Positions 4,401 through 50,545 of a DNA stretch of 64,000 nt are shown here, piece by piece; the stretch's first letter is position 1; each line of letters begins with the position of its first letter. The position numbers were made by a program, and so were the translations under genes. The stretch is from Apus apus (Eukaryota > Chordata > Aves > Apodiformes > Apodidae), in NCBI RefSeq assembly GCF_020740795.1, contig NC_067285.1, forward strand, positions 15,678,001 to 15,742,000, given 5' to 3'. Under the pieces are notes generated by a model. It had not been told where the DNA came from and did no database searches. It saw nothing but the letters and a program-made list of their open reading frames with translations.

Positions 4401-7400
4401 AAAGTGGGCTGGGCCAAAATACTTCTGTAGACGTTTATTTGGGGGGGTTGCTTCAGAGGTTCTCTTTTTGTCAGAAAAAACTGTAATGGTTTCTGAAAAA
4501 GGCTACTTGATAATGTCAGTCTGTATGCGTATAAAATCTCAATTACCATTACAGAATAGATGAGGTTGGAAAAGACCTCTCAATATAGTGTAGCCCAACC
4601 CCACCCTACCTTGAACAAGGTCAGCTAGAGCAGGTTGCCCGGGTTCATGTGCAGTTTGGTTCTGAACATGGATCAATACCATAACCTCTCTGAGCAGTGT
4701 GCATTTTGTACTGTTAGGCAGATGAAGCATCAGTATTCACAGATAAGTAAGAATTTTCCTATAGTTGTTAGAGTGGTTACCAACCTATTTAAATTACTTG
4801 CTCAACAGTAATGAATGTTTTCATCCAGCCATGTGGACCTCATTGTATTTTATTATGGTCTACTTACATACTCAGTAGATTTAGCTAGCTTCTAATTAGT
4901 AGTTCTTAATTGTACTACCTGTAGTAGGCTTTTCTGTCTAAGGATAGGGAATGAACACCTAAAGCAGCTCATCTTTGACAGGTTCCTATATGGCAGGAGG
5001 CTAAATAAGCTGTTTGATTACTGAGTTGGGCTTCAGACATGGGAAACAAATTGTGTGGTGCCACTAGGTATCAGGGTTGAATTCTTAAGTGGCTGCAGTT
5101 TGGATGAGTTTGAATTTCTGGCTGTTGGTTTCCATCAGATTGGGTGGCTTGTTTTATTCAATAGCAAGTTGGGAAAGTGTCTCTATGTACAGAATTGTAT
5201 ACTGCATAGGAGTGTCTTGTAATCTCATGTAGTTATATTGCAATTATAAGGAAGAAAAAGTAACATCATTCACTGCGTACTTCAAAAAGACTGCGAGCAC
5301 TGCAAAAAATTTTTAAATGGTTAGAAGTTGACATCTTAACAACCAAGATTTTCTTTGAAAATCCAGAGTCAGCATGAATTATTTGTGCCTGTTTTCCATT
5401 CTCTCCATAGAGCTGTATCTACTGAGACAGTTTCACTTAAAGTCTGTAATCTTTTTCTGTCGAAGTGCACACATGACCAGTACCTTCTACAATTACTAAG
5501 AAATGCAAACAGTATCAGCACCTGGATTGCTGCTGAAATTGTAACATGTCACACATCTAAGGTTTGTCATTGTTCTATCTTATTATTAATTATTAAATGG
5601 TTATTTGTTTGTTATTGCATACAAGTCACTACGAAGCAAAGTTGCAAGAAGTATTTTGAAACATACCTGTGAGTGGGCAGTTAACAGTTTAGTTTGTGAT
5701 CACAAGGAGGGTCTTGGATGTTTTGTAGTAGCAGGTGTCAAAACCTAATAGAATGTAAAAAATGGGTTGTCTGAGGAGGATAAATGTCAGACTTCAACAA
5801 GGACACCTCAGTGACAGAAAACAGAAAACTTTGTGTTGGAGTGAAGTGTTACTACAGTCAACAATTTTTATATCAAATTCAAAAAAAGTAAATGCATCTC
5901 TCTTTCTTCCTTCTCATTTAATTCTATTATGTAAGTTCACTATATATATTTAGTATATCTTATTTTTTTATATAAACAGTATATCCTAATATATATTTTT
6001 TTTTTAGCTGCAGGTGAGCTTGTTATCAAAATTTCTTCTTATAGCAAAATGCTGCTATGAACAAAGAAATTTTGCTACTGCAATGCAAATCCTAGCAGGC
6101 TTGGAAAATCTTATTGTACGGCAGTTACCAGTAAGTTTGGGACTCTGTTCTGTAATTATTTTGCTTAATGTAATCCTGTTCCAATATGGAAATTAATGTG
6201 AAAAACAAAAATATATTTTGTTTTATTGTAAGGCCTGGAAAATGTTACCTGCAAAAATAGCTGAAATAATGGAGGAACTCAAGGCTGTTGAGGTACAGTA
6301 TAAAGTCTTCAATGTAGAAATACTTTTTGGGTTAGATAAGATGCAAGATCTACTTAAATGGGTGCCTCTGCAGGATAGAAGCCATAATTATTATATTATG
6401 AAGGAGATTTTTATTTGATTTAAAACTGTTGACTCTTAATCTGAGATCTTACATGAATTATCATCTCAGTATTTCTCAAAAATGTGACTGTGTGACTAAC
6501 AACTAAGAAAGTAATTTCAGAGCAAGCTAGGATGTTAGATACACCCTTCTGCAGGAGCTTTGTGCCTGTAGTCTGTTTTGAAAAACTTTAAATATTTCTT
6601 GTATCACAGACACTATCTTCTTGATCTCTTAATTTTTTAATCATAGATTGAAGTTCTAAAATTTAATTTTGGCTATGATTTAAAACCATTAAAAATTATG
6701 TATAAATTATCTTTTTATTAAAGTTACTTACTTTATATCTGTACTTTATAATTACAGTTTACCATCAGATTAATTGACAGTAGTGTCTTCAGTATCAAAA
6801 CTTAAAATTCATTACAAATAAGTATGTAGTGCTAAACACATGAAATGGAAAACTTCTTGTAAAACCTGCACCAATATTTAATGTAAGATTTATCTGTGTG
6901 CATTTTTAAACTAGGTGTTTTTAAAAAGTGACAGCTTGTGCTTGATGAAAGGAGAAAGATTCAAAACACTTCCAACAATTCCATCGGCCCATGTTTTGGC
7001 TATGCATGTCCAGCAACTTGAAACTGGAGGATTCACAATGACAAATGGAGCTCACAAGTGGACTAAACTTAGGTAATTGTTTAACTATGTGTATATGTCA
7101 CTGAACTTTTTAAAATAGAATACTGTCTCATGGGGTAATGAGACGTAAGACAGCATTTCACAGCTAGCACTGTAAATAGTTTCAACCTTTTAGACATCTA
7201 ACTAAAGGAACATATACTATAGAAAAGAATGCTCAATATTTTGACTTTCCTTTAAAGTCTGGTTTTTGGGATGTTTTTTGTTGTGGGTTTTTTTATCATC
7301 AGCAAAACAAACTAATCTTTTTTACCATATTCTCTTTCAAGAAATATTGCAAAAGTTGTGAGCCAAGTTCATGCCTTTCAAGAGAATCCTTATGCATTTA

Positions 7401-17826: not shown

Positions 17827-17834
17827 ATTTGCAT
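17827..17834 (-). promoter_or_regulatory. POU octamer upstream of vent gene A
   Basis: ATTTGCAT is the exact reverse complement of the octamer ATGCAAAT bound by POU factors, including POU5F1/POU5F3. It lies about 270 bases before the start codon and beside a TATAAA at about 17818. Function is inferred only. Confidence 0.4.
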
Positions 17835-17981: not shown

Positions 17982-18044
17982 TTATCTGGCCCTTTGATGT
18001 GTATTTACACAAACAACGCTTTCCTCCGGGACTTACGGTATAAA
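17982..18044 (+). promoter_or_regulatory. Core promoter of vent gene A: GATA, TCF-like word and TATA box
   Basis: TTATCT (17982-17987, GATA site on the minus strand), then CTTTGATGTG (TTTGATG at 17993-17999, TCF/LEF-like) and TATAAA at 18039-18044. The TATA box is 61 bases before the ATG, so transcription would start near 18070. A homeodomain word (CAATTAGATGAT) sits just upstream at about 17969. The same order is found at vent gene B, and a variant at gene C. Confidence 0.6.
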
Positions 18045-18099
18045 GGAGGAGCCATGCTCCCTGACACCCTCCTTCCCGGCGTCTCCGAAACAAGGCAGG

Positions 18100-18313
18100 A
18101 TGACCAAGGCCCCTTTTTCTGTGGAGTGGCTGTCCCAGAGCAGCCAGGACCTCAAAAGCCCCACCGACGGCTCTCCGCACCGAGCGTCGTCTGCAGGCCA
18201 CCAGTCCGTCTCTAGCCCTGGGTTGAGCGAGCAGAGCGAGGACCAGTCCGCCAGCCGCCAGGCAGGGAGAGGTGGCAGGAGCAGGGAGCACTTGGCGGCC
18301 CCGGCCGCTGCAG
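18100..18313 (+). CDS. VENTX: Vent gene A exon 1
   Basis: Encodes 71 codons plus one base: the FSVEWLSQSS motif, then a Ser-rich region. Donor CAG|GTAACC. Confidence 0.9.
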
Positions 18314-19163
18314 GTAACCGCGTTCTCCGCGGCCGTCGGGGCATACTGGTGCTCCCTCGCCGGGAGGAGGAGGGCGGACGGGCCCTGTCTCCCCCGCAAA
18401 ACCCCGATAAGGACCAACTATGCGATGACTGCCAGAGGCGAAGGAGGCGGGGAGGGGGGGCCACCGCCACGGTTGCCGCGCCTGGCTGACCCATTTCTCC
18501 CTCTCCCCTGTCCCAGGAGCAGCCGAGCGGCCCTGGGCAGACTCGCAGCCCCCGCCGGAGGGTGGTCCCGGGGGCTCGGGCCCTGAGGAGGCCGGAGGCA
18601 GGGGCGGGCGGCGGCTCCGCACGGCCTTCAGCGCCGAGCAGCTCAGCACCCTGGAGAGCTCCTTCCAGCGGCAGCAGTACCTGGGGGCCGCCGAGCGCCG
18701 CAAGCTGGCGGGCAGGATGCGGCTCTCCGAGGTGCAGGTGAGCGTGGCAGAGGGCACGGGCCGCTGCTGGAGCCGGGGCATGGGCATGGGCTTGGGCTGG
18801 GTACCGCTGTGACCCCGTCTCTCCTCATTCCTCTCCTCCTCTTTCCGCCAGATCAAGACCTGGTTTCAGAACCGCCGGATGAAGCTCAAGCGGCAGCTGC
18901 AGGAGCTGAGGTCGGAGCCTTTCTGCAGCCCCCCTCTCCCTTATGGACCTCAGAGCGGCGTTGTGCCCCTGTCGCTCACATACGTGGCCCGGCCACCACC
19001 TCTGCCCCAGCAAGGCGCTGCCTCTGGGGGCTTCACCTTGGCGGCGCTGCCAGCACCCACCCTAGACATCAGGAGCGCTTGCAGAGCACATCCTGTGGGC
19101 TTTTGGGCAGCACCCTACTTTGTAGGGTACAGTGATCCCAGGGCCTTCTTGCTGGGTGTCTGA
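18100..19163 (+). CDS. VENTX: Vent-class homeobox gene A (three exons, 248 aa)
   Basis: Exons 18100-18313, 18517-18737 and 18852-19163 join in frame with GT-AG introns and encode 248 residues. The N-terminus starts MTKAPFSVEWLSQSSQ, the vent-family N-terminal motif. The homeodomain spans about residues 102-161 (RTAFSAEQLSTLESSFQRQQ ... LSEVQ|IKTWFQNRRMKLKRQ), with the vent hallmark Thr47 and intron 2 between positions 44 and 45. The tail is Pro-rich, ending AFLLGV. Family knowledge: vent factors (Xenopus Vent, human VENTX) are nuclear repressors downstream of BMP signalling, acting in ventral mesoderm and in pluripotency and differentiation control. The start codon is the first ATG after a TATA box and begins the conserved motif. 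Position next to KNDC1 matches human VENTX. NANOG is excluded, since its homeodomain lacks this context and lies elsewhere. Exact orthology among the three copies cannot be settled here. Confidence 0.92.
18517..18737 (+). CDS. VENTX: Vent gene A exon 2 (homeodomain residues 1-44)
   Basis: After CTGTCCCAG. Encodes a Gly/Pro-rich linker, then RTAFSAEQL through LSEVQ. Donor CAG|GTGAGC. Confidence 0.93.
18852..19163 (+). CDS. VENTX: Vent gene A exon 3 (recognition helix and C-terminus)
   Basis: After TTCCGCCAG. Begins IKTWFQNRRMKLKRQLQEL and runs to TGA at 19161-19163; 103 residues, Pro- and Ala-rich. Confidence 0.93.
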   Translation: MKTWFQNRRMKLKRQLQELRSEPFCSPPLPYGPQSGVVPLSLTYVARPPPLPQQGAASGGFTLAALPAPTLDIRSACRAHPVGFWAAPYFVGYSDPRAFLLGV

Positions 19164-19366
19164 CCTTCTGATATAGACTATGACTAAGGATTTGCACTAC
19201 TGACAGCTGTCTGGGCTGCCCTTGTCTGTAACTGCCTGGTGGAGTTATGACGCAGCACTGGGCAAAATGTTTTACAGAGACACACTGGACAATCTGGATC
19301 CTGGATTTAAGGCCCCTGCATTTATAGGGAACCGTGTAAAATAGAGGCACAGTGGGACAATCTTTT

Positions 19367-19372
19367 AATAAA
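19367..19372 (+). terminator. Poly(A) signal of vent gene A
   Basis: AATAAA about 200 bases after the stop; the first canonical hexamer. Confidence 0.65.
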
Positions 19373-22300
19373 CCTAAACGTTTTCCAGCTTTCCTGTGAA
19401 TTCTTCCCACGAGGAGTGATTATCAAAAGAAACGAAACATTGTGAAGCTGGTTTTCCCTAAATGGCAGTAAAGTTTGTAACTTTTGCTATGCACTTTTAA
19501 AAATCTGAATAATGCTCTCAAAAACTTAAGATCAAAATGGCCTAATTTCAGGCTAGAGAAAGGACTCTGAGAAATTATCCTGGACTGATGTAAATTGCCA
19601 TAAATCTTTCAAAGTCAATTGTCAACTAACATGAAAAGAGCAATAAAAATTTCCATTGCTTTAGAGCTGGTCTCTGGGGTTATTTGAGAACATCCGGCAC
19701 ACTTGTAATCTGGGCTCATATAATTGATGGTCTGAAGGTTTTCTTGTCACTCATCCCTGAACACACCTATTTTCTTTTCTATACAGGGGCCAATCTGCCA
19801 CTTGAATATGCTGGCTTGGTAAAAAGCAACGTTATGTGCTGCCGGAGGCTGTAGCCTTTTATTTTCTGAGTGGCTGTTGTATTTGGAACTCTGCTTCATT
19901 ATTTGGTAATCTTTACTGCATTTCTCTAGCGTTTTGAGAACTTAGTATTTGTTTGCAATTGCACAATTAATGTCGTTCTAATGCAAGATTTTCAGAAAAT
20001 TATAAGGGCTCAGGTGCTACCAATCTTTATGACATCTCTTCTGGAGCATGATGCAGTTTGGGATTAAGGAAATTTGTCAAGAGGTAAAAATTCCCATTGA
20101 ATGTGGGCTTATTTTTCAAAGTCAGGTGTTATTAAATTATTATATTGATAGAAGAAAAAAATAAATTTGCAATTCTCTCTGACTCTTTCAAATGTCATTG
20201 GGGAACTGGGATGTTTCTAGAAAGAGCTCTACAATGGTGAATATTCTTTCTGCTCTAAAGCAGTGACATTTTTTTAACAGCAAAACAATCAAGGTCAATA
20301 AATATACGATTTATCTTTTAAAAAAAAAGGTCTCAAGCATAAGACTGGATTTGACTATCCCGTTTCCAAGGGGATAGTGGTAGACGGGTAGGTGATCACC
20401 TATATAATTTTGTATGTATGGCCACAGAGAAGGACATAATGACTCTGCTCCAGGTGCCTTGCTCACCCCATTCAAAAAGAAGAGTAACAGTCCTTCGTGC
20501 TACTAGAAGCCAGACTCAGCCGTACCGGGGCTGTGGGCTAGGGGTAAGCACCCTCCATGGGAACCGATGGGGCCCGTGGCTGCCCACAGCCCTGCTGGAG
20601 CCCTCCAAACCCGGACCAAATGGGGAAGGGAAGGGGCTGGGCTGCTGGTAGTGAAGAAGGGAGAGATGAAAGGGCTCAGGAGGAGAGCAGGAGAACCAAA
20701 TGCTCCCACTCGTGGAGGTGATCTGCTTCGATGGGAACAGGCTTTGTGTGGAGACAGAGCTCCCCCGCACTCTCTCCTAGGAGACAGGCAGGAGCACACC
20801 TTACCGGGATCTCCAAATGTCCCGTGGAGAGCTCTCTCCAGGGGCAGAGCTGGCTTAGCCCTAGAGGGGGTTACTTACCCGGATCTCCCCTCTCCGTTCC
20901 CGGGGCTGGTAACCCGGAGCCGGAGTCGCGGCTGCATCGAGTTCCCGCAGCCACCGGGCCTGCCCGGGCTATGGGAGGGCAGAACCGAGCTGACCTGACG
21001 CTGCACCTGCCCGCTCCCGAGGACAGCTTGGCTGAGGCCAGCCGTGCTCGAAGGAGAGTGTGTAGCAGTTCCACCTTCGTGCAAAGGTTTAGGGCAAGCC
21101 AGAGGCAATTGGTTGCTGCCGGGGCAATACGCAATGTTGCAACCTTTGCCACGATTTAAGCCCACGGGGGTTGTGGGGACCACGCTTGGGACAAACAGGG
21201 CTGCGGGGCCGAGCGCCACCGGCCATGGGGACAATCATGGGAACGGAGGCTTTGCTCACGGGGTGTGTAAGAGGATCCCTGTAGTCTTGCTAAGGCAGGC
21301 AGGTTCCGTGCCAGTGGCGCGGGCTGGTGAGAGGCGTAAGGGGGTGTCCTGTCTTTGGGGGTGTGAACTGCAGAGCAGCGGGAGAGGGACAAGCCGAGTC
21401 CTGCTTGAAAAGGTGCTAATGATCACTTAACATAATGACTCCTTGGCCACATACGTACTCAACAAGCACACGAAATGTTTGACAGTGTTCTGGCAGCGCT
21501 AGCTTGCAAATATTGTCCCGTTGCCCACAATTACTCAAAAGAACGCGAGGGGTGATGCTCCCTTGGTTGTGTCCCTGATGGTAGCAGATTCCTTTGAATA
21601 TCTACATTATAATTCTTCTTCTACGTGCAAAAATCTGCTTTCCATAGAAGGTAACTACTACATTCCAGTGGTCTAGAAAATTGTATGTGAAATTGTTTCA
21701 TTTTTGCTAAAGCAGTCGAATTCTATTATTAAAACGTGGCTGCAAGTTTTTCCTTTGATCTGGAAGAAGTTTTATTCCTGCTCGTTTGATTTTCTCATCC
21801 GCTGTGTTTTACCCCTGGCAGCAATTAAGGTGCATTAGAGTCAGCGCAGGACCCATGTCCCCTGGCAGTCCCTCGCCGGAGAGCAAAGTGATCTTGTTCT
21901 GGCATCTCACCCACCTCACACCCTAGGGCGGGCACCGGCCGCTTCTCTGATCAGCAGCCGGGCCATCCCCCAGAGCGGCTGAGAGCCCACTTCGTTTCTA
22001 GTGCTCCCTTTTGTGTCTTTAATAGCATCACAATAACCATCAGTACCAGAATGATCTCCGGCAAGACAAAGCATTGTCTACAAGTCAGATACAAATGGAA
22101 AAACTGAGCCGATTAGCTGGGGAGGAGCAGTTTAATGCCTGTGCGGTGAAACTGTTGGAGCTCCCTGCCTGACGGCTCTCGAGGAGGCTGTATAACCTGG
22201 AAACTGGGCTCCCTGGGGAGGAAACGCGGGTAGGAGGGGAAAATTGCCAAAGCACTAGCTTCAAAGCCCTTCTCCCCTGCAGTGTGTGCACGGAGGGGGA

Positions 22301-22490
22301 GAAACATGATTGAATTAGCCCAGCGGTAATGGCAGGGAGCTGTCTGCGGCCCACGCTCGTTAACGCCTGCCCCAATTTGGCTAGAGCAGCCAACAGGGGA
22401 CTGGGAATAGGGTCGGCGTATCCCCCCCCTGCAGCTCCCAGACACGATGGAGCCATTCCAGGGACCTCTTTACAAACCAGGTGAAGCTGT
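19373..22490. other. Interval after vent gene A, no gene recognised
   Basis: AT-rich to about 20400, then GC-rich (20400-22480) with many overlapping open frames on both strands that show no homeodomain or other motif. Contains an inverted repeat (20354-20378) and the palindrome AGGTGATCACCT (20390-20401). Some stretches (for example about 21750-21850) look regulatory, with homeodomain words, but cannot be proven so. Confidence 0.5.
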
Positions 22491-22499
22491 TCGGCGTTG

Positions 22500-22610
22500 T
22501 GTGCTAATCGGGAGAGATCTCGCACTGGCAAGCCATTAACATCTAATTGCTGCCCATTATCTCTTTCTTTGATACGCAATTAGATAACAATTAACTTGAT
22601 AAATCCCACC
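22500..22610. promoter_or_regulatory. Candidate enhancer 1 in the vent cluster (homeodomain/GATA/TCF words)
   Basis: About 110 bases carry CATTAAC, CTAATTGC, TTATCT, CTTTGATA, CAATTAG, GATAAC, CAATTAA and TTGATAAAT with little space between them. The combination of TAAT-core, GATA and TCF-like words matches that at the vent promoters. The flanks to about 22780 hold a Sox-like CATTGGG and CTTTGTAAC. Inference from motif density only. Confidence 0.45.
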
Positions 22611-23210
22611 GAAGCGGGGACAGGAAGAAAGAGGAGAGCTTTCTGGATTTCGGCTCTTTCATTGGGCAGACTTTGCTACTTTTCCTTTGTAACAGCTTCT
22701 GAAACTCCTAGATCTCAATCTAGTGTTATTTTCTAATGGTATTTAGTAGGGAACTAGTCCTGACAGCTCTTTTTTATTCAGGTAGGTTAAGAGTTTTAAT
22801 TCTTGTTTTAGTGCATAGTTATTCTGCCTGGGCAATTCTGAACAACTGTGGATGTATCACAAATCCTCAGGCAGCGTGGCGATGGCGTGCATGGGAATTC
22901 GAGTACTATTTTGTTTCGAGGTAACCTATACTTAACTTATCTATGCGCTTTGTTCATTAGTTGCGCAAAAGAACGGAATGAGATTTCCCCGATAAATCGT
23001 TTTTAATGCAAAGCGCGTGTTTGCTCCCACAGTTACTGAATACGAAGATCTGAGTTTGCAGCTTGCGAGCCGGGAGGGAAGAGGGTGCAGCGCTGCCGAG
23101 TGAGTCAGTAGCATTTGTTATTTATGGAGTGTTAGCCCGCATTGTTCCCGTGGGCAAAGGAGCGACCGGGTGATGGCCCTGTTAGTGTTCACGGGTACTT
23201 CAAACAGAAA

Positions 23211-23320
23211 AGCGTCTATTCCGAAACAATCGATCTCGTTGATGCCTAATTGACTATCTAATAGCACCTATCAGGACATCAAAGGAGGCGCTGAATAACC
23301 TAGTTAACATTTCCAAAGGG
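23211..23320. promoter_or_regulatory. Candidate enhancer 2 in the vent cluster
   Basis: Holds ATCGAT, CTAATTGA, TATCTAAT, CCTATCAGG and ACATCAAAGG (CTTTGATGT on the minus strand, the same word as at the promoters of genes A and B), then GTTAAC. A further block at about 22955-23030 has CCCGATAAATCG and TTAATGCAAAG (octamer-like). Confidence 0.45.
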
Positions 23321-23324
23321 GAGC

Positions 23325-26300
23325 ATTGAAGGGTACAAACAGTGATCAGCTGTCCCCCATGCGAGGGCTGGGGCTGCCCCTGCAGCCCGGCGGCTCCCGA
23401 GGCCAGGGCTCAGCTCAGGCTCTGCTGTCGCATACAGCCCTGGCTTTTCTGTGGCCTAAATTGGAGAAGGGCAAAATACTGTATTGCCTGCACTTCCAGC
23501 AATGTTAGCAGCGTTCCGTGCAGTGAGTTAGCTTGTTTACCTCCGACCGCCTGCCACAGACTGCTAAAAAACTGCTGCCTGGTTTGTGCAGCTAAACATG
23601 GAGGGGAGGGTAGGAGAATTGGATTTGTTGTTCCCCCTCTCCGGAGAAGTGGGGTGGCATTGCAGTTGATCTTGCTGCATCCTCTATTATCGCTGCTTCT
23701 CCAGTTTTGCTAGGAAAACTCTGAAATCTCTGCGCTTTTCAGAAGGATAAATGAGATTTGCCTATGATGAAGCCACTAACTCAGCATCCCAGCAGGTCCC
23801 AGGTCTAGTGATGTAGTACATCAGATCTTAACCTATGATAAATGCTATGACTGGTTGCTCAGTATAGCATTTTTTCATGGACTACTTCTTACAAACATGG
23901 CTAGTAGAAGAAAAGTTTGGAACCTGAAGATTTCCCAATTATGTTAGAAACTATTTTTTAAATCCTGTCTTACAATTTCTGACCATTTTTTCTTATGCTG
24001 TCACACAAAAGCAGGTGTTAAAGTATGTTGAAGGACTTGGCACACCAGCTTCTTGGGGAGTTCAGGTATTTAATCGCCTAGTAAAGGGTGAGCATCTCAT
24101 AACTGGTGCAAGAAGTGCTACAGCCTAGAAAATCGCCTGAACTTTCTTCCCAACAATATCTTTATGTGTGTGGAGTTGCTGCACTCCTGCCGGTTCTCAT
24201 GGGCTTATACTTTGTGTGTTTGCACAAAGGCTCAAAAGAAATACTCCCATCGTGTACCGGTGACGTAAACCTACCGTTTGTCCCTAGAAGTCTTGTGGAG
24301 TTCACATGAAGAAAAAAAAAAGAAAGCGCACTACTTTCTCAGGACCTTAGCTATAATTCTCACATCCTGGCATTAAGTAATGCACCAAAATTTCAGGGTG
24401 TGTTATGACACAAGTTATTAGTAAATTTCTTGAAGCAAGCATATTTCTTATGGCTGTAAGGCTTAGATGCAAATGCAGAACAATAAATATTTTGAAATTT
24501 GATTTAGAGAAATGGGTCCACTATGTTCTTAATATAGGTGGTATAAGACAAATACATGCATTTTCCAAGATTCTACAGTATGCCCAAGTTCTAGGTATAC
24601 AGAAATCTAAATAAAGACACATCAGTTTCCCTAAACATTTAGATTTCATTTTTATAATGGTTATCTATTGACTGAATGTTACAAAAAGCTTCAAATGATA
24701 CAAAATAATTGAGTGGAAGTAAGTTTGTGTCTCCTTTAAGCACCATATTTTTGCAAGTTGTGGGGGGAGGATTTAAATGCAGCTGCAGAGCCTCTGTCCA
24801 CCAGGGGTGATCAAAGTTTTCAAGTTTCTCAAGCTGCCACTTCTTATGGATGGGAGTTACAACAGCCACATAACACATTCCACTCCTTCCCCATCTGTTC
24901 CAGGGTTTTGTGGTCCACAGATGCAGTTACGTTCATCTGGGGAGGGCATCCTGGGGTTGAGTATAAATATCTTATGCAACTGGCAATTCGGATTGCATTC
25001 TAATTTGGAGTGGGGGGGGAAACATCAGCTTTCCTTGACTTTCAGCAAACAGTGGGACAGGTCAGCTGCTTCACTACATCCTGAGTCAAATGGCTGGGGA
25101 AATGGCAGCAGCTATTATGGGGTACTAACAATTATTTTATATAAGGCATATAATATATAAATGCAAATGTGCATGCTGGTCAGTTTGGGCACAGCACTGA
25201 ATAGTCATCTCAGGCCTGGTTTAATTTTGGCAGTAGGGATGAAATATCTCTCCCTAGATGGTAGTCTCTGTGTGTCTGGATTGGGGGGATTACAGAGCAC
25301 AGAGAAACCAGGACTGCCTGCCTTGAAATAGGTTTCATCTTCTGGTGGGGAGCATGCTATTTGTTGGGCTGGTGTGTGTCAAGTTTAGGATCTCCTGAAT
25401 CTCAGCGGCTTTCAGGTACAACCTCCAAACTTGGTTTTGGCAAAGTAGTCAGGCTCTTCACGTATTATGCAAGGAACGGCTTGCTGTGGATGAATTTATA
25501 TATGGTGTTCTCTGTGTGGATTTGCCCACACACGGGGTTATTCAGAAATAAGATGTGAGATTGCGAATATGGTGGTGCATTTGCTCCAGGAAAAAATAAG
25601 AGGGACCATACAAAGGTGGATAGTTCAAGAATAGTTATGAAATCCAGAAGTTCTTAGAATTCATGTGCAAGCACTTAGCTCTTTGGGGCAGCAGGGAGTC
25701 ACCTATCCCTGTTGGACTTAAATGTGTCTAGGAAATACGGATAGGTTTAAACACTCCCCTGCTATGGTGGTTTTGGTTGGGTAAATGGCACTCACTGTTA
25801 TGCATTTCTGACTCAGGGAGGGAGTCTAGTCTCCATCTCCTTGGGCTTTTGCTCTCCTTTGCTGCTTGGGCTTTTGCACTGGCTTGTGTGTATCAGCCAA
25901 AATTACATTATTCTGCCAGTGGTAACTGAATCTCCATAATGATCAGGCCGATCTCTCTATCAGGGCTGTGCTGAGGTGAGTACAGTCTCTCCCATCCCTA
26001 CCCTTCAGGGCTGGTGTTGCAAGCAAAACTCTAGGAGGAATCCAGTTCCTCAGCTCTGTGGGCTTGGTAAGGAGTTTGCATTGCTCTGGTGCCCGGGCTT
26101 TAACCTTCCCCTGGGGCCAGAGCTGGGATAGGCCGATGTGGCCCTTGGGAGCAACAGGGGTAGATAATCCAGCACCTAGTGTCTATTCTGGTGGCCATTG
26201 AGCTACAGGAACACTTGAAACAATGGATTAATATTATTTTCACCCTTGATCTCTCCTCATAAATTGTGGAGTTTTGAGGAGAGTTGGTTTCATTGGGGTG

Positions 26301-27460
26301 TTTAGCTTATTTTTAAATTTTAACCTTTTGTTTGTTTGTTTTGGTTGTTTTTTATTTTTTTGTTTTGGATTGGTTTGTGGTTTGTTTTGTTGTTGTTTTG
26401 TTTTTGTTGGTGTTTTGGGTTTTTTTGTGGTGGTTTTTTTTTCTGAAAAACCCGTCTTATCTACTCTTATGTATGGGAACAGAGATTGCGGCTCTGTTCT
26501 TATAAAGAATCAGGCCTTTGCGTCCTGCCCCTTTGCCCTCCCATTAGACGCAGGTTCATGAAACCCACTCCTTTCAGCCGTGCATCCTAGACAGAACCCT
26601 GCGGAGTTCCGTGAAAATTGAGGTTCTGTCAGTGCATATACGCAGTGACATGGATGGTGATCCCTTCCTCTGCTTTAAGAAGGATCGAGAGTTAGGATAT
26701 ACGCTATTCAAGTAGTACTATTGCCAGTGGGGTCGTGGTCGGTGACATCTCTTTCTCTGGGGTGGCTAAAAGCTGGGTGTAAATCGGAGACAAAAGCCCG
26801 GAGAAGGGCTGAGCTGCCGAGATGCCTATTTCCCCAAGCTTTTCTGAGGGGTGAGGGTGTCTTAGCATTCACCCTGCATTACAAGAGCATAGTCCGCCTT
26901 GGGAAGCGATGTGTGGATTGGGGATAGTTTAAAGTTGATGAGGTGCGAGTTTCGCTGCTCACTTAGTGCTTTGATCGCTGAACTCTTCGGGAGGCCGGTT
27001 GCGTTTTCTGGCGAGACAAACGGCGCCAAGTTCAAGCTGAGAGGGCCAGCGGCCCTGCTAACCCCAAGAGCCGGCCTCGGGGATAGGGACTTCTTGCTAG
27101 CAGCCCCCCATGGCTTTTCCCAGGGAAGCCGGTGTCCACATCTCCCCCGAGGCGAAGTGCCCGACTGCGGGGCTGGCAGGCCCTGCCGCCGTTACGTTAT
27201 CCCCCATCCTTCATCCCTGGTTTCGGATACCGGCGCAATGCGTGACCCCGCAGCTGTAAAGGCAGTGGGGAAAACCGCGCTGTTATCGGCACCGGCGGTA
27301 TCTTTAAACGCCCCTATGCGGGGCTGGGCCTGCCCGTGCCCTGCCCTCCGGGGGAGAGGTGCAGGTTTGCACTTCAAGGGGGTCCCACCCGGCCCCTCAG
27401 ACACGCTGGAGCCAGGGGCTGTAGACATTTGCCAGACGTGTGAAATTTCCTCCTCGCTGG
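23325..27460. other. Interval before vent gene B, no gene recognised
   Basis: Mixed composition with no recognised gene. A strong G/T-rich tract lies at about 26327-26442, and its long open frame is only that tract translated. GC content rises again from about 26900 towards the promoter of gene B. GGCGCCAAGTTCA at about 27023 recurs upstream of gene C. Confidence 0.5.
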
Positions 27461-27466
27461 CATCTG

Positions 27467-27545
27467 TTATCTCTACTCGATTCCCACTTTGATGTGGGTT
27501 CACACTTGCAAACGAGCGCGCCGAGGACCGGAGTGCCCATATAAG
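27467..27545 (+). promoter_or_regulatory. Core promoter of vent gene B: GATA, TCF-like word and TATA box
   Basis: TTATCT (27467-27472), then ACTTTGATGTGG (TTTGATG at 27488-27494), a T-box-like TTCACACTT, and TATAAG at 27540-27545, 45 bases before the ATG. Transcription would start near 27570. The order matches gene A. Confidence 0.6.
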
Positions 27546-27584
27546 AGCGGGACGAGGCCGACGGTCCCCCAGCTCCTCTCAGCC

Positions 27585-27822
27585 ATGAGTCAGGCCGAAC
27601 TCCTTTTGGCAGAGACCAAGCCCCACGGGGCTAAGCCTCATATTTGCTGCGCGCCTCCTCCCCGTGCCCCTACCTCGCTCGGCAGCACCGCCCTCCCGGT
27701 CAGAGCCGAGCCCCGACGGCGGGTCCCGCGGCCGAGCCAGCCCGCGGACAGCGAGCCCTGCTCGGCGGAGCGGGACCGAGCCAGTCCTCGGGAGCACTGC
27801 GACTCGTACCCGCCGGAGCCAG
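27585..27822 (+). CDS. VENTX: Vent gene B exon 1
   Basis: 79 codons plus one base; Pro/Arg/Ala-rich, ending YPPEP. Donor CAG|GTGGGT. The start is supported by the upstream TATA box, but no N-terminal family motif confirms it, so an alternative first exon remains possible. Confidence 0.75.
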
Positions 27823-29130
27823 GTGGGTGAGAAGGGGATAGGGAGGGACAGGAGGGGAGCGGGCGGGACACACACACTCACACACACGGAACTTCGACTC
27901 CTGTCTCTGCAACGACCCGCCAGCGCGAGGCAAGGCGGAGACACCCCTCCAGCCGGGGAAAAAGGCCTCATCGCAGCCCCTTCCCTCCTCCTTTGCAGCC
28001 TCCGACGGCGGCTGGCTGAGCGCCGACGAATCCTCGGGCTACGAGAGCGAGAGCGCGGGAGGAGATCGCGCTGCGGCGGCGGGGGGAACCCGCGGGCGGC
28101 AGCGGAGGGCGCGGACGGCCTTCACCTCTGAGCAGGTCTGCCGGATGGAGAAGACCTTCCAGCGCCAGAAGTACCTGGGGGCCTCGGAGCGGAGAAAGTT
28201 GGCGGCTGCCTTGCAACTCTCGGAGATCCAGGTGGGTTCTAGAGGAAGCAGATCCTTCCATCCCCCGTCGGGTAGGGGCAGGCAGGTTCGGCGGTCTGGC
28301 GTCGACCTTCCCTGCTCTAGGCAGCTGTAGCGGCCTTCAGTAGCCTCTAGCAGGGGTTGTGGTAAGGGCTGTGGGATCCTTCGGATATTAACGAGTTAAC
28401 ACGGGGAATCTGGGGGGAATTTCCACCGGGGAGGTATCTAGGTTCCTTTATTTCTTGATTAAGTAAACTGCTTGTTCTTGATGTACAGCGGTCTGCGTAG
28501 ACTTTATAAAGTTTATATATGGTCCTAAAGACTCAAAATGAATAATCTAAAGTCGCTGAACACGGGCATATTTTCAGAAACTCTGCATGCTCCGAGATCC
28601 TTTGGCCTCTGTTAACTAGAGCCAAAGCAGCAGTCTAACTCTGCAAACTCAAGTGGAGCAAAAATGTCAAGAACAGCCAATGTACAGTAGTATACAGTTT
28701 GCACTTTATTTTAAAGGAAAGTCCCTGAGTTGTCTCTCCCCCTCCCCACCCCGTTCTTTTTGTTCCTCAGATCAAGACCTGGTTTCAGAATCGGAGGATG
28801 AAACTGAAGAGGCAGATACAGGACCAGCAGCACAGCCTAGCGCCTCCTGCTCCACTCTACAGCTACCCCCCAGGGACCCTACCAGCCCTGTTTCAGGACG
28901 GGCTCCACTACCCGTTTGCTTCACAGCACCAGAGACTCCTGCCTTTTACCCCGCTGCCTGCTGTGCAGTTCGGCTTCTCCTTCCCCAGATACGACTCATC
29001 ACAAAGCACCTACCACTTTATGGCAAACGAGCTGCCATACTACCATCAACGCCTTCTTCCTCGTCCTCCTTTCCATTCAGTTACTCAGAACAAAATGGAC
29101 AATAATTGCCACCCTGTATATGCGTTATAG
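27585..29130 (+). CDS. VENTX: Vent-class homeobox gene B (three exons, 276 aa)
   Basis: Exons 27585-27822, 27999-28231 and 28771-29130 join in frame with GT-AG introns and encode 276 residues. The homeodomain is at about residues 114-173 (RTAFTSEQVCRMEKTFQRQK ... LQLSEIQ|IKTWFQNRRMKLKRQ), with Thr47, intron 2 between positions 44 and 45, and Met instead of Leu at core position 16. Just before it lies an acidic Ser/Tyr motif, SADESSGYESESAGG (about residues 87-101), of the kind seen in frog Vent2-type proteins. The N-terminus (MSQAELLLAETKPHG) lacks the FSVEWL motif of genes A and C. The C-terminus is Pro/Tyr/Phe-rich and ends HPVYAL. The start codon has a good context (CAGCCATGA) 45 bases after a TATA box. 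Expected to be a nuclear DNA-binding repressor of the vent type; the altered N-terminus suggests different partners. Closest to Vent2-type members by the GYESES motif, by inference. Confidence 0.9.
27999..28231 (+). CDS. VENTX: Vent gene B exon 2 (homeodomain residues 1-44)
   Basis: After CCTTTGCAG. Encodes the GYESES motif and RTAFTSEQV through LSEIQ. Donor CAG|GTGGGT. Confidence 0.93.
28771..29130 (+). CDS. VENTX: Vent gene B exon 3 (recognition helix and C-terminus)
   Basis: After TTCCTCAG. Begins IKTWFQNRRMKLKRQIQDQ; 119 residues to TAG at 29128-29130. Confidence 0.93.
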   Translation: MKTWFQNRRMKLKRQIQDQQHSLAPPAPLYSYPPGTLPALFQDGLHYPFASQHQRLLPFTPLPAVQFGFSFPRYDSSQSTYHFMANELPYYHQRLLPRPPFHSVTQNKMDNNCHPVYAL

Positions 29131-29680
29131 TGGGAGAAAAAACAGGGCAGGCAAGGGAGAAAATGTTGTATGCTGTAATGTGATTTTTTGATCCCAAAAT
29201 CTTCTCTGAGAAGAGATTTTATTATTTTAAGTTAAATGTGAAAAGGAATTTTATATTTGTAAGAATTAATATTAAAATTTGTTGGATTTGATGACACGAC
29301 TTTTTTTAATAGGCTATTGATTTTATTAAGTTTATTTTTAAATGGGCTTGTTAAGAAACTGATTTTCATTGCACATCCCCAGTTTCCATACATACATATA
29401 GATAAAATCTGAACAGAGTTGTATGCCAACTCTACAAAGGTTGCACTTGCATAGTGTGAATGACCATGGTCACCTGAACTCTGGTTTTGGGTAATGGGGA
29501 AGGATTTAGATGTTTTAATACATCTTACCTGACTTTTCTACACTCATGCCAAGATATGTTATGTGTGTTCAGTGTGTTTGGGAGCCTGGATCTTAACAGT
29601 TGCACTGGACTGTGCTTTTGGCTAAGTGCATCCTTCAGGAAGAAGGATAAACAGCTGGTGAGTTTTATCTTCTGAACATT

Positions 29681-29686
29681 AATAAA
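29681..29686 (+). terminator. Poly(A) signal of vent gene B
   Basis: AATAAA about 550 bases after the stop codon; the first canonical hexamer seen. Confidence 0.5.
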
Positions 29687-32025
29687 TTTATTGCTTTGCA
29701 TTTCCAGTCTTGTCTTCCACCTGAAAGCATCAGCTGTGTTAATAACAAATATTAATTGTCTTTAAACAGGAATTAAACAGTTTAAACATTCAGCAACAAA
29801 TTTTAAAGGGTTACAATTACTGAAACAAATGCTTCGTAAAAAAAAAAAGTGCACAATTATGTTAAATTCATAACCATATAACAAATGGAATTTTCTGCAA
29901 TTTGGGCCTTTGATTCATCACTAAATGCCCATCATAATTGCATTTATATCTTTTTTAGTAAATGAAGCCCTTTAGAAGAAACATTTAAAGGGAGTAGATC
30001 AAGTTTTAGCTTCAGCAATTGTGAAAGGTTGCTGGTTGTTTAATTCTTCCTGGTATCAGTTTTGACTCTTCTTCTGAAAGATCTTGTTTAACACTTATTT
30101 CATGATCTTTTAGACTTTAAAGTTTTCTTGATTCACCTCAAAGGTCTTATAAATGCACTGGAAAATAAGTTGACTGCTGCATTGTAGCCTGGATTTCTCC
30201 CCTCCAATTCAGTGAGCCATAAAGACCCTAGGGGCTTCTCACTCGTGAAAGGATGACTTGGAAGGGGAAAAGGGAATTTTCTCCAATCATGCTTTTCCAA
30301 ACCAGATGCAGTCTTAATTCAAAGAGGATCCAGGCTGATGTGTTTGAGGCACTTGCTGGTTGTTGAGGAAAGCAAGGTGTGGAATTACAGGTTGACTGTT
30401 CATAATAGTGCTGCATTCGGGAGATGGTTTAGTGGTTAGGGGTTATAAGGTGGATGGTTGAACCTGATGATCTTGAAGGCCTTTTCTAACCTTGATTCTG
30501 TGATCTTCCCTGTATTGTACAGTCTGTGTTCACAGTGACTGAGAAATAAATGCACGTGTTGTCCCTTCAGCTTCCTAACTGCAGCCTCAGGGTGCTGCTG
30601 TCCTGGAGTGGCACTGAAAGGCATATGTTGGTAGGGGGGGAAATTCCTTCAAGTGTCTCCCACCCTCCCCATGGGTAGGAAAGTGAGGGATGCTTGAGTG
30701 CAGGTTCAGAGGCAACCTTACTATGAAATGGCATGCTTAGCAATTTAATTTTATCCAGAGGTTACAAACAGAGAGGAGACGAGCAACAGGAAGCAGGACT
30801 CTGGATGGAAGTTTGTCTTCTCCTGTACCTCAATATCCCTGCTGTCTACAAAAGACTGATTTCAGCTTTGCTCTCCTTAGCCCCCCAACACAACTGTTAA
30901 GGAGATGAGAGAGAGGGGAAGGCTGTTGGAGGCACAATTTACCAGCTTTTTAATTTTTTTCTTATGAGCAATCTCAACAAGGAAGAAATGTTTTTTTGTG
31001 AGTCGTTGTTTTGGGATGTTTTTGATTGTTCTTTCTCTCTTGATAATTGCAAAGTAGTCTAACTCACCTGTCTGGAAGGCAAGGATGGTTGGGGGCAGGG
31101 AAGATGTAATCACACCTGCTGCAGCTGCTTTATGCTAATGCAAGATCTCTTGTTTCTCCTGATTTCCTAAAGGTTTGGCTTTGCCACTTTGCATAAAGCT
31201 TGCTTTGGGATTTTTAGGATAGCAAGCCTATAAGGATCCTACAATTTAAAATTAGCAAGGCTGCCAAGCTACAGCCAAAACTTAAGAAATAAAAGCTGAA
31301 GCATTTTAATTCTTAACGTCCCAGGAGACCTGAACTTGTGACCGATTCCTAGGTTTTCATCAGCAGTTTTAAATTACAAGCATGTTTGACATTGGCATGA
31401 TTCTGGTTGTCAATTAATTCCTTAGCCTCACCTCTCTTTAAACACATAAATGGAGTATATAGATCAACAAATAGGGGGGACCACTTTAGGAATGGTGCAC
31501 AATATAGAGATAAAAGACAGTACTGGACAATTTGTTCTGCTTTGTTCCTAGGGCTGCCACCTTTGGTATATTTTTAATTTCAATGCATTTCCTGTAGTTT
31601 ACAAATCTTCCCTTAAAATCCTGCATGGAAGTAGAAGGTCAAAATTTTAATACTGTTGTCTATTATGTTACATACTTACTATGTTAATTGAAGTATAATC
31701 AGTATTCCACTTTTTCAGTGGAGTTCACCGCATGATTATAGGCTGTTTTCTGAAAGCAAACTTTTGGATAGGAAAATTCATGTAAAAGTTTCAATACAGC
31801 ATAGTGAAGACTGCAGGAATAAAGGGAAGTTTCAAGTCCTCCACTTCCACTCTCAGTATTACTTCTCTAATACAGACAAGTTATTTTCTCCTTTAACATA
31901 AAACATAAAATTTGATTAAAAAAATAAAATTGAATAATCAATTTGATGTAACAAAATAAGTTAAATAATTACTCTTAGAGCTGTTTGGGAGTTCTCATTT
32001 TGATTACAGGTCATCTTTGGCATTT
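29687..32025. other. Tail-to-tail interval between vent genes B and C
   Basis: About 2.3 kb, AT-rich, with no gene. Contains a CR1 3' fragment (30425-30510). No AATAAA for gene C is obvious on the minus strand near its stop; an ATTAAA at about 31646-31651 is a weak candidate. Confidence 0.6.
30425..30510 (+). repeat. CR1 3'-end fragment
   Basis: GGTTGAACCTGATGATCTTG followed by AAGGCCTTTTCTAACC and GATTCTGTGATCT is the CR1 3' terminus in plus orientation. Confidence 0.85.
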
Positions 32026-32397
32026 CTAACAGGAAGGAAGATATGGCTGGAACATCAGTCTTTCATGGACATCTGTCAGAGTCATTGCTGGAACTGCAGA
32101 AGAGTAACAAGATAATCCTGGGCTGGGAGGCATCAGTAAAGCTGGACTTGGCAAAATGGGCTGAAGGGGCTGAGCTGGAACAGAAGGCAACAACAAGGCA
32201 GGGCTTGGAATAGCTGGGTGAAGGGAAACAGCACAGGTAGAAGAGAGATTAATGTCCATTCCATGAGAATAGGTGGAGGTAGCAATATCTGGGCAGTAAT
32301 GATAGGGCAAAAATAAACCTGAGAAGAGAGCTTCCACCCTAGCATCTTGAGTCTGACGTTTAAACTTCATACGACGATTCTGAAACCAGGTTTTTAT
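32026..32397 (-). CDS. VENTX: Vent gene C exon 3 (recognition helix and C-terminus)
   Basis: Acceptor TTATCCTCAG. Begins IKTWFQNRRMKFKRQTQD; 123 residues to a TAG at 32028-32026. Confidence 0.92.
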   Translation of the reverse strand: MKTWFQNRRMKFKRQTQDARVEALFSGLFLPYHYCPDIATSTYSHGMDINLSSTCAVSLHPAIPSPALLLPSVPAQPLQPILPSPALLMPPSPGLSCYSSAVPAMTLTDVHERLMFQPYLPSC

Positions 32398-33596
32398 CTG
32401 AGGATAAAGGAAAAAAAGAGTAAAAAACCAACACAGTTGTCTCTCTTCCATATAGTGATACATCCTGAAGCCAGACTTATTATCAGAATCACAGAATATA
32501 ATAACATTTAAAAGATTTAGGGCCTATTGACCTATATTCAGAGCAGAGCAATTGTGTAGGCATGAGCAGGAAACTGTAACAGCTCCACGATGCATGACAA
32601 GACAATTACTCATAGATCAGATTTGGACCAGGAATATAATCCAAGACTGCTTCAACGGGATTAAAAGGGCTGGGTAAGGCTGGCTCTGTTCAGAGAGAAA
32701 TCCTGAACTACTACCAAGTATATACGTATTTTAAAGAATTAACCTGAAAGTGGAAGTTCCGGTGATTGTGCAAGCATTCTTAACTCCGATGAGGTTTTAC
32801 CGTTTACATTTGCATTCACTGTGTTCTGTCTGCTTACTGTCTCTGGTTTAAGAGAAAACCGCGTCGGACTGCAGAGCTGAGGCCGGCTGAAGCAGGACGT
32901 TAGCTGGCTTAGCCTCACTGCCACAGGGACAAAGCTGACAGCCGGCCCAGCCGCACCTGCGGGAGCTGGCTCCGGCCCCCCGCTGGCCACGAGGTGCCTC
33001 CCAGCGCCAGCACGGGCGGAGGGCTCCTCTCCCCTCCCGCAGTTTTTAGGAGGGGTGTGAGGATCGGGGCGGGGTGGGGCCCGTCTCCTCCCTCCGGCGG
33101 AGGGCAGCGCTCACCTGGCTCTGAGAGAGGTTCAGCTCGGCGGCCAGGCGCCGCTTCTCGCTGGCGCCGATGTAGCGCTGCTCGCGAAAGCTCCGCTCCA
33201 GCTCCTGCAGCTGCGCTGCCGAGAACTTGGTGCGGGGCCGCCCGGACACGGCGCCGCCGCCTCCCGCCTCCGCGTCGTGCCCGGGGCTGCTGCGGTCCCA
33301 GGGCGCGGCTGCGGGCGCAGGACGGGGGGGTTAGGGGGGGACGGACGCAGGGCCGCGCGGGTGGTGACGTAGGCAGCGGCTGCACGTGCGGCGGCCGTTA
33401 GGCTAACGGTCTCCCCCAGCGGTCGGGCCGCCCCACCGGCCCGTGAGGAGAGACGGGACTCACCGCCTCCCGCCGCGCTCGCTCGGCTGCCGGTGTCTCC
33501 GGAGGGGGAGCCCGGCCGGCTGGCTGCGGCCGCGGGCTGGGCTCCGCCGCAGCTGCTCTGGGCCAGCCACTCCACCGAGAAGGGCCCCTTCTCCAT
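32026..33596 (-). CDS. VENTX: Vent-class homeobox gene C (three exons, 232 aa)
   Basis: On the minus strand, exons 33596-33464, 33308-33115 and 32397-32026 join in frame with GT-AG introns and encode 232 residues. It starts MEKGPFSVEWLAQSS, the same N-terminal motif as gene A. The homeodomain is at about residues 66-125 (RTKFSAAQLQELERSFREQR ... LNLSQSQ|IKTWFQNRRMKFKRQ), with Thr47 and the shared intron position. Differences from A and B are Lys7 instead of Ala7, Lys31 for Arg31, Gln42 for Glu42, and Phe56 for Leu56. The tail is Pro/Leu-rich (two SPALL.P repeats, PSPALLLPS and PSPALLMPP) and ends FQPYLPSC. Expected role: nuclear vent-type repressor. It is inverted relative to A and B and is the most diverged homeodomain of the three. 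All splice sites and the frame are intact, so nothing suggests a pseudogene. Confidence 0.9.
33115..33308 (-). CDS. VENTX: Vent gene C exon 2 (homeodomain residues 1-44)
   Basis: Acceptor CGCCCGCAG with a C-rich tract and CTAAC branch-like word. Encodes APWDRSSPG, a Gly-rich linker and RTKFSAAQL through LSQSQ. Donor CAG|GTGAGC. Confidence 0.92.
33464..33596 (-). CDS. VENTX: Vent gene C exon 1
   Basis: 44 codons plus one base, with the FSVEWLAQSS motif followed by an Ala/Ser/Gly-rich stretch. Donor GGCG|GTGAGT. Confidence 0.88.
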
Positions 33597-33648
33597 CGCT
33601 GTCTGCGCTCCCCGCTCTCTGAGGCCGCCCCGGCTTTAGGGGCAAACA

Positions 33649-33699
33649 TTTAAAGCGCCTTACACTACGTGGTTTGAAAAGGCCGCAAAGCATCAAATG
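33649..33699 (-). promoter_or_regulatory. Proximal promoter of vent gene C: TCF-like word and TATA-like box
   Basis: Read on the minus strand: CATTTGATG (TTTGATG at 33697-33691), then TTTAAA at 33654-33649, 53 bases before the ATG. Spacing from TTTGATG to the TATA-like word (43 bases) is close to genes A (46) and B (52). A TCF/Sox-like CCTTTGTTC is just upstream (about 33709-33717). The GATA word of A and B is not present. Confidence 0.45.
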
Positions 33700-33880
33700 A
33701 GGCAGAGAACAAAGGACTCTATTGAGAGGCGCTTTAATCTCCCCTTTCAGGTGATTGTTACATCCGCCTAATCTCTGAGCGCAGTAGTTAGAAGAACTCA
33801 AGGCTACCTGACCTGGCGCCAAGTTCAGCTCTGAGTCGTCTCCCGACCACGTAGCTGCTGATAATTGCATTATGGCCAGC

Positions 33881-45159: not shown

Positions 45160-45243
45160 TCAGTCGCCCCATTTTCCCATGCCCTATGCCTCTTTAGATT
45201 AAATTCTCAAAGAAGTATATGCATAGGAAAAAGGAACAACGAG
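45160..45243 (-). ncRNA. MIR202: MIR202 precursor hairpin
   Basis: On the minus strand, the 5' arm (45230-45209) contains CCTATGCATATACTTCTT and the 3' arm (45193-45172) contains AGAGGCATAGGGCATGGG, matching vertebrate miR-202-5p and miR-202-3p as I know them. The arms pair across a 15-base loop (45208-45194), and a lower stem (GTTGTTCC against GGGGCGAC) extends the hairpin. Human MIR202 lies beside VENTX at 10q26.3, so location agrees. miR-202 is gonad-enriched in vertebrates, reported higher in chicken testis; its 3p arm has a let-7-like seed region. Processing and expression are not shown by sequence. Confidence 0.93.
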
Positions 45244-48934: not shown

Positions 48935-50545
48935 TAAGGTTGGAAGGAACCTTAAAGATTATCAGGTTCCAACCTCCCTGCTCTGAGCAGGGACACCTCA
49001 TATTAGAACAGGCTGCACAGGGTCTCATCCAACCCGACCTTTAACACTTCCAGGGAGGAGGCTTCCACAACCTTCCTAGGCACCCTATTCCAGCACCTTA
49101 CTACCCTCATGGCGAATAATTTTTTCCTGATGTCTAACCTAAATCTACCCTCTTTCAGTTTAAAACCTTTACCCCTTGTCCTATCACCACATCTCTGGTG
49201 AAAAGCCCCTCCCCAGCTTTCCAGTAGGCCCTTCAGGTACTGGAAGGCTGCTATAATATCTCCCTGGAGCCTTCTCTCCTCCAGGCTGAACAGCCTCAAC
49301 TCTCTCAGCCTGTCTTTATTGCAGAGGTGTTCCAGCCTGTTGATCATCTTCATGGCCCTCCTCTGGACCCTCTTCAACAGTTTCATGTCTTTCCTGTGCT
49401 GAGAGCTCCAGAGCTCTACACAGTACTCTGGATAGGGTCTCACCAGAACAGAGTAGAGGGGGAGAATCACCTCCCTTGCCCTGATGGCCGTTCTTGTCTT
49501 GATGCAGCCCAGGATGTGGTTGGCCCTCTGAGCTCCAGTGTACACTGGTGGCTCATGTCGAGCTTCACATCTACTACAACCCCCAACCACCCCCAAGTCC
49601 CTTTCCTCGGGACTGCTCTTTACCCATTCTCCCCCTAGCCTTTATTTGTGCCTGGGGTTGCACCAACCCAGGTGCAGAACCTTCCACTTGGCCTTGTTGA
49701 GCTTCACGAGGTTGACATTGGCCCACCTGTCAAGCCTGCGAAGATCCCTCTGGATGGCCTCTGTTCCCTCTAGGGTGTCAGTGACACCACACAGCTTTGT
49801 ATCATCAGCAGACTTGCTGAGGATACACTCAATCCCACTCTCTTACTCTCCAACAAAGGTGTTAAACAGCACTGGTCCCAGTACTGACCCCTGGGCAACA
49901 CCCCTCATCACTTGTCTCTGCTTGGACACTGAACCATTGACCACACATGTCTGGGTGCAGCCATCCAGTCAATTACTTACCCACCAAGTTGTCCATCTGT
50001 CAAATCCAGGTTTTGTCAGTTTGGAGATCAGGATGTTGTGTGGGACAGCGTCAAATGCCTTGCAAAAATCCAGGTAGATAATGTCAGTTGCTCTGCCACT
50101 ATCCACCATATCTGTAGCCTTGTTGTAGAAGGCCACCAAATTGGTCAGGCATGTTGGCTGTCACCAATCACCTCCTTATTTTCCGTGTGCCTTAACAGAT
50201 TTTCTAGGACTATCTGTTCCATTATCTTTCTGGGCACAGAGGTGAAACTGACTGGTCTGTAGTTCCCTGGGTCTTCCTTTTTACCCTTTTTAAAAATAGG
50301 GGCTGTGTTACCTTTTTTTCCAATCAGCAGGAACCTCACCAGACTGCCATGACCTCTCAAACATGATGGACAAAAGGTTAGCAACTGCATCTGCCAGCTC
50401 CCTCAGGACCTGTGGATGGACTCCATCAGGTCCCGTAGATCTGTGCACCTTCAGGTTCCCTAGATGATCATGAACTTGTTTTTCTCCTACAGTGAGGAGT
50501 ACTTCATTCTCATAGTCCCTACTTTCATATTCTGTGGCCTTTTAA
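48935..50545 (-). mobile_element. Decayed CR1 LINE, reverse-transcriptase end
   Basis: A 5'-truncated CR1 of about 1.6 kb in minus orientation. Its 3' end is at about 48940 (GGTTGGAAGGAACCTTAAAG). Reading leftward, the translation first shows [18 protein letters not shown] (about 50390-50145), a reverse-transcriptase block. The catalytic Asp-Asp context SADDTKLCG follows at about 49790-49815, then the C-terminal domain (LYSVLVRPYPEYCVELWS, then KGFKLKEGRFRLDIRKKLFA) at 49596-49003. The blocks lie in different frames with stops between, so the ORF is broken and the element is not autonomous. The usual Phe before Ala-Asp-Asp is Ser here. Confidence 0.92.

Follow-up and report, generated by a model that had tools for sequence, protein, structure and literature searches.

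Vent-class homeobox genes in vertebrates

In Xenopus, six vent-class homeobox genes (ventx1.1, 1.2, 2.1, 2.2, 3.1 and 3.2) are clustered and fall into three subclasses. The present report concerns three genes of this class, designated A, B and C, that lie together in the genome of the bird Apus apus. They occupy 15.5 kb of a 64-kb stretch of contig C5 (C5:15678001-15742000), hereafter the window, within which all positions given without a contig name are counted. With moderate confidence, we take the cluster to be a complete Ventx triad inherited from the tetrapod ancestor, with A as Ventx2 (the orthologue of human VENTX), B as Ventx1 and C as Ventx3, situated between a probable KNDC1 gene and mir-202.

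The order of the frog cluster is compatible with 2-1-3, and the frog proteins are described as carrying, like A, B and C, a Thr at homeodomain position 47 (T47). The vega family of zebrafish (vox, vent and ved) is likewise a multi-gene vent family, described as controlled by bone morphogenetic protein (BMP), but ved resides on another chromosome, unlike the clustered genes of Apus apus (PMC8911082). Humans possess one functional VENTX (10q26.3) and seven retro-pseudogenes (PMC2211742), compared to three genes in Apus apus; an earlier sequence-only reading of the window had also credited humans with a single functional copy, in agreement with this source. The human gene shares its neighbourhood, a RasGEF gene and mir-202, with the cluster described here, and A is its likely orthologue. 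The supplementary legend of PMC5487210 places the origin of Ventx1, Ventx2 and Ventx3 in the ancestor of tetrapods; the same paper has mammals retaining Ventx2 alone and presents human VENTX as the orthologue of the Ventx2 of Xenopus, birds, sauropsids and coelacanth. NANOG, which Xenopus is described as lacking, has two loci of its type in Apus apus, and is, like A, B and C, an NKL homeodomain protein that bears T47 and whose coding sequence is interrupted at 44/45.

A cluster of three vent-class genes in Apus apus

The three genes are modelled as follows.

18100-18313, 18517-18737 and 18852-19163, + strand: gene A, three exons, 248 amino acids, N-terminal FSVEWLSQSS
27585-27822, 27999-28231 and 28771-29130, + strand: gene B, three exons, 276 amino acids, without the FSVEWL start
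33596-33464, 33308-33115 and 32397-32026, - strand: gene C, three exons, 232 amino acids, FSVEWLAQSS start

These exact models bear out the earlier proposal of three three-exon homeobox genes within 15.5 kb that share the 44/45 intron and Thr47, and add that gene C lies on the strand opposite to A and B, a detail absent from that proposal. All six introns are bounded by GT and AG, with intron 1 in phase 1 and intron 2 in phase 0 in each gene, and it is intron 2 that falls between homeodomain residues 44 and 45. The open frames and good splice sites of that proposal hold as well, and a TATA-like box lies before each gene. Each homeodomain is 60 residues long and matches the Pfam Homeodomain family (E = 1.9e-20, 2.2e-20 and 6.8e-21 for A, B and C, respectively). 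Identity between homeodomains amounts to 42/60 for A and B, 37/60 for A and C, and 35/60 for B and C, making C the most divergent. There is no fourth homeodomain in the 64-kb window, where the next best match has an E of 0.85.

The whole assembly (1.10 Gb in 110 contigs) was searched with the homeodomain of B, giving 87 matches with the best 150 of 161 candidates scored, and with the homeodomain and C-terminus of C, giving 70 matches with the best 150 of 188 candidates scored. Within these best candidates, the B query found four matches in the window genes and none above 61% identity elsewhere, the C query found five in the window and elsewhere none above 55%, nearly all of the latter ending at the homeodomain, and neither search found a further vent-like gene outside the window.

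A tree was built of A, B and C with 22 other homeodomains of the same genome, comprising 20 near-whole single-exon matches from the B search and two NANOG-type loci, each with its two exons joined, and without rows for the BARX, DLX, HHEX or VAX of this genome. Rows among the 22 resemble the BarH, Tlx, Gbx, En, Msx, Nkx and Hox groups, the names being given by likeness. A, B and C fall on one side of a branch against all 22 (support 95/91), with C as a long branch, and the NANOG-type rows form a separate branch (100/97) that leaves A, B and C outside NANOG. In trees with human VENTX, Xvent-1 and Xvent-2 as provisional sequences, which provide a lead rather than a database test, these three and A, B and C form one group (95/97). 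A first tree, made of provisional rows and one row taken mostly from a Protein Data Bank (PDB) entry, had no starred branch, and placed A, B, C and the three vent rows on a weak side (46/79) shared with EN2 and VAX1. A, B and C form one family within their own genome and are, by way of the provisional rows, almost certainly vent-class genes.

T47 and the 44/45 intron cannot serve as proof of vent class, because both are displayed by the two NANOG-type loci of the same genome; T47 is described as rare among homeodomains and as shared with Bar. The NANOG-type loci are found on a different contig (C1:126344100-126348500 and C1:126350500-126355400), in opposite orientation and approximately 11 kb apart. 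Each bears T47 and a frame break at 44/45, one reading NQRMKFKRCQ and the other NRRMKLKRCQ, and their number fits the two NANOG paralogues reported for archosaurs (PMC3894937).

The locus and the identity of the paralogues

The cluster is flanked on both sides by recognizable features.

1371-1475, + strand: exon match to RasGEF_N that stays under the family cut-off (E = 6.2e-4)
6011-6205, + strand: RasGEF exon match (E = 9e-6, above the cut-off), in the same flanking gene as the RasGEF_N match
45164-45239, - strand: mir-202 precursor (Rfam, 101.8 bits against a cut-off of 51, whole model matched)

A distance of 11.6 kb separates the precursor of mir-202, a gonad-linked microRNA, from the 5' end of gene C. 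The RasGEF_N and RasGEF exons to the left of the cluster are what we would expect at the 3' end of KNDC1, and this RasGEF-type gene is probably KNDC1. The order reported for eutherians is KNDC1, UTF1, VENTX, MIR202, and for marsupials KNDC1-VENTX-mir202, with UTF1 reported absent from birds (PMC3706607). The cluster very probably sits at the VENTX locus, since mir-202 and the RasGEF exons flank it in this mammalian order. Against the name KNDC1 stand the KIND domain, which gave seven matches genome-wide with none on C5 and was not found in the three + frames of C5:15658001-15668000, and a genome-wide RasGEF_N search that does not have the window among its 11 matches.

Gene order also informs the pairing with individual frog genes. 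Frog Chr7L carries ventx3.2, 1.2, 2.2, 1.1 and 2.1 in that order (PMC8911082 Table 3); on the assumption that the frog has duplicated the 1-2 pair, this reduces to 3-1-2, and the window shows the same order when followed from its mir-202 side, with C as 3, B as 1 and A as 2. A is accordingly, with the provisional sequences also taken into account, the best candidate for the orthologue of Ventx2/VENTX, and B and C are the best candidates for Ventx1 and Ventx3, respectively. The Ventx3 genes are called the most differentiated of the family (PMC8911082), in agreement with the homeodomain of C being the farthest from those of both A and B, although Table 3 of the same paper gives ventx3.2 a higher similarity to human VENTX than ventx1.2.

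Several observations weigh against this one-to-one assignment. Chr7S has the same order as Chr7L but with ventx3.1 between 1.2 and 2.2 (PMC8911082 Table 3), and is thus not a clean 3-1-2. The homeodomain tree leaves the pairing of A, B and C with frog genes undecided, and its only supported inner pair is that of the provisional VENTX and Xvent-2 (93/84), with A outside, which takes a little from the confidence in the triad. Constraint tests rejected none of the groupings of A with VENTX (p = 0.36), A with Xvent-2 (p = 0.17), B with Xvent-1 (p = 0.32) and B with Xvent-2 (p = 0.13). The homeodomain of B is identical to the provisional Xvent-2 at 46/60 positions and to Xvent-1 at 44/60, and that of A at 43/60 and 40/60, respectively. 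Furthermore, squamates, archosaurs and turtles are stated to have lost at least one Ventx paralogue (PMC5487210). The earlier suggestion that a multi-copy vent system has been retained here is in line with the published tetrapod triplication.

The foremost alternative is an expansion of a single Ventx2 specific to sauropsids or to birds, with copies that lack one-to-one frog partners, and such an origin would sit well with the archosaur losses, with the undecided inner vent branches and with the failure of A to pair with the provisional VENTX and Xvent-2. A further point in its favour, and against the triad, is the N-terminal module common to A and C and absent from B, for which none of 500 shuffles reached the A-C similarity score; C could accordingly be an old duplicate of A. 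The N-terminus of B is no more than chance-like to that of A (286/500 shuffles) or C (164/500), suggesting an old split, as do homeodomain identities of just 35-42 of 60, and the gene order fits that of the frog cluster. On balance, an expansion of this kind is rather unlikely.

Promoters and protein modules

The three genes share a promoter word and differ in protein modules, the positions of which are listed here together with those of other promoter elements.

17993-17999, + strand: TTTGATG within CTTTGATG, -107 of gene A, LEF/TCF-like
27488-27494, + strand: TTTGATG within CTTTGATG, -97 of gene B
33691-33697, - strand: TTTGATG within ATTTGATG, -101 of gene C
18039-18045, + strand: TATAAAG box, -61 of gene A
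27540-27546, + strand: TATAAGA box, -45 of gene B
33648-33654, - strand: TTTAAAT, TATA-like, -58 of gene C
17827-17834, - strand: octamer ATGCAAAT, -273 of gene A
28034-28048, + strand: SGYES codons of gene B, degron-like, two serines spaced as frog Ventx2 140/144

The sequence CTTTGATG before A and B resembles a LEF/TCF consensus site. The shared word TTTGATG was spotted by eye and the shuffle test designed afterwards; in that test, any 7-mer common to the three 250-base promoters occurred at positions within 10 nt of each other in 0/2000 shuffles, within 15 nt in 1/2000 and within 30 nt in 3/2000. Within 1500 bases upstream, the exact octamer ATGCAAAT is present before A alone, and with six copies in the window it is weak by itself; regulation of frog Xvent-2B by a POU factor is named in the title of a paper. 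The BMP-response element GRCGNC-N5-GTCT is absent from the three 1500-base upstream stretches and from the window as a whole. A 13-mer, GGCGCCAAGTTCA, has exactly two copies in the window (27022-27034 and 33815-33827, both + strand), one at -563 relative to B and the other at -231 relative to C; as an uncontrolled observation it is not used as evidence.

At the protein level, the FSVEWL start is displayed by the outer genes A and C, and B starts differently. We take FSVEWL to resemble the eh1 Groucho-binding motif. SSGYES occurs in B alone among the three proteins; the degron serines of frog Ventx2 are numbered 140 and 144 (PMC5487210). Scored by our own implementation, with the usual threshold of +5, PEST stretches above zero are found in A (6.1 and 8.4) and B (9.2 and 10.4, the highest), each exceeding +5, and C has none. 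The PEST domain is called conserved across the Ventx family (PMC5487210), and its absence from C by this score counts against the assignment made above, as does the location of SGYES in B, the Ventx1 candidate, whereas the degron studied in the frog is that of Ventx2.

This distribution of motifs and promoter elements leads us to propose that all three are repressors under a shared Wnt-type input, and that two of them recruit Groucho and one is cleared fast. The products of A, B and C would be NKL homeodomain transcription factors that most likely act as repressors. Their expression would be turned on in early ventral/pluripotent or neural-border cells from a short TATA promoter, where the LEF/TCF-like site some 100 bases ahead of the start codon would supply the Wnt-type input to all three. 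The eh1-like FSVEWL start of A and C would recruit Groucho/TLE, while B, which lacks FSVEWL and has the phospho-degron-like SGYES inside a PEST stretch, would be the one that is cleared fast. A division of labour among the three genes is only hinted at by these promoter and protein modules. The combined view, that a bird keeps the full Ventx2-Ventx1-Ventx3 triad against the published archosaur loss, plus two NANOG genes, with eh1-like Groucho-recruiting modules on the outer genes, a beta-TrCP-type degron in the middle one and a common LEF/TCF-type core promoter, is put forward tentatively, its chances standing below even.

Integrity of the reading frames

A second alternative is decay of one or two of the copies, their frames open in one individual and yet untranscribed or under relaxed constraint, and the longest homeodomain end branch in the own-genome tree, that of gene C (0.5), could be taken in this way. 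Chance openness was gauged with 4000 dinucleotide shuffles per exon. Exons 1 and 2 are so GC-rich that their open frames say little, each being open by chance in 23-73% of shuffles. Exon 3 is open by chance in 7.6% of shuffles for A, 0.95% for B and 0.27% for C, which speaks against decay of the latter two, as do an intact homeodomain core and intact splice sites throughout. The promoter word TTTGATG is common to all three genes and the gene starts are CpG-rich (observed/expected 0.70-0.87, against 0.31 for the CpG-poor window), leaving decay improbable.

That A, B and C belong instead to another NKL family with T47, such as Bar, NANOG or Tlx, is scarcely plausible, for although the NANOG-type loci share T47 and the 44/45 break and BARHL2 is the best single-homeodomain match among the solved structures listed, the tree parts the three genes from BarH-, Tlx- and NANOG-type rows (95/91), the provisional VENTX and Xvent rows fall with them, and mir-202 is their neighbour. 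VENTX itself was not found among the best 60 of 112 matches to solved structures, and a viral contig set gave two pattern matches and no relative.

Significance of the cluster

A vent cluster in a bird is expected in kind, and three genes are a modest addition rather than a new kind of system, because the tetrapod triplication of Ventx1/2/3 is already in print, archosaur losses included. What is added seems to be a bird with the full three-gene set, the promoter word common to its members and the motif split; judged by titles and the starts of abstracts, no bird Ventx1/2/3 set was found among the papers listed, one of which (PMC2491631) names Ventx and Gallus, and public gene annotation may already name A, B and C. 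Xenopus is reported to have lost NANOG and rodents Ventx, and the two genes are regarded as guardians of developmental potential that can in part replace each other. With its three vent genes and its pair of NANOG-type loci, this bird offers a natural test of such interchangeability, and if the triad is complete alongside two NANOG genes, the losses in rodents and frogs would not reflect simple interchangeability. Birds can serve to ask how a vent set divides its work, and their embryos are easy to electroporate. Sorting the paralogues into stable, degradable and Groucho-dependent ones would reveal what was lost in mammals, which kept one.

Neighbouring sequences

To the right of the cluster (34.5-64 kb), six-frame Pfam searches (E 0.01 or 0.1) for a protein neighbour gave only reverse transcriptase; the Pfam scans of the window left out 19.2-27.6 kb and 29.1-32 kb. 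The reverse transcriptase remnant spans 49003-50115 (- strand) and consists of an RVT_1 match (49654-50115) and an adjoining open reading frame (49003-49641), and looks like a CR1 element. Matches to PANTS-like and Megourin fell below the Pfam cut-offs and were taken as chance. Reprolysin (ADAM-type) has 28 matches genome-wide, none of them close to the window, and 60 kb of flanking sequence gave no match in Rfam. Between A and B, an AT-rich stretch (22540-22600) displays, by eye, several homeodomain-like sites and is a possible enhancer. The contig that bears the VENTX locus here, C5, is 115.5 Mb long, and chicken chromosome 6 is far shorter than this. In chicken, the VENTX locus is assigned to that chromosome (PMC3141429), a difference that hints at a chromosome fusion in Apus apus.

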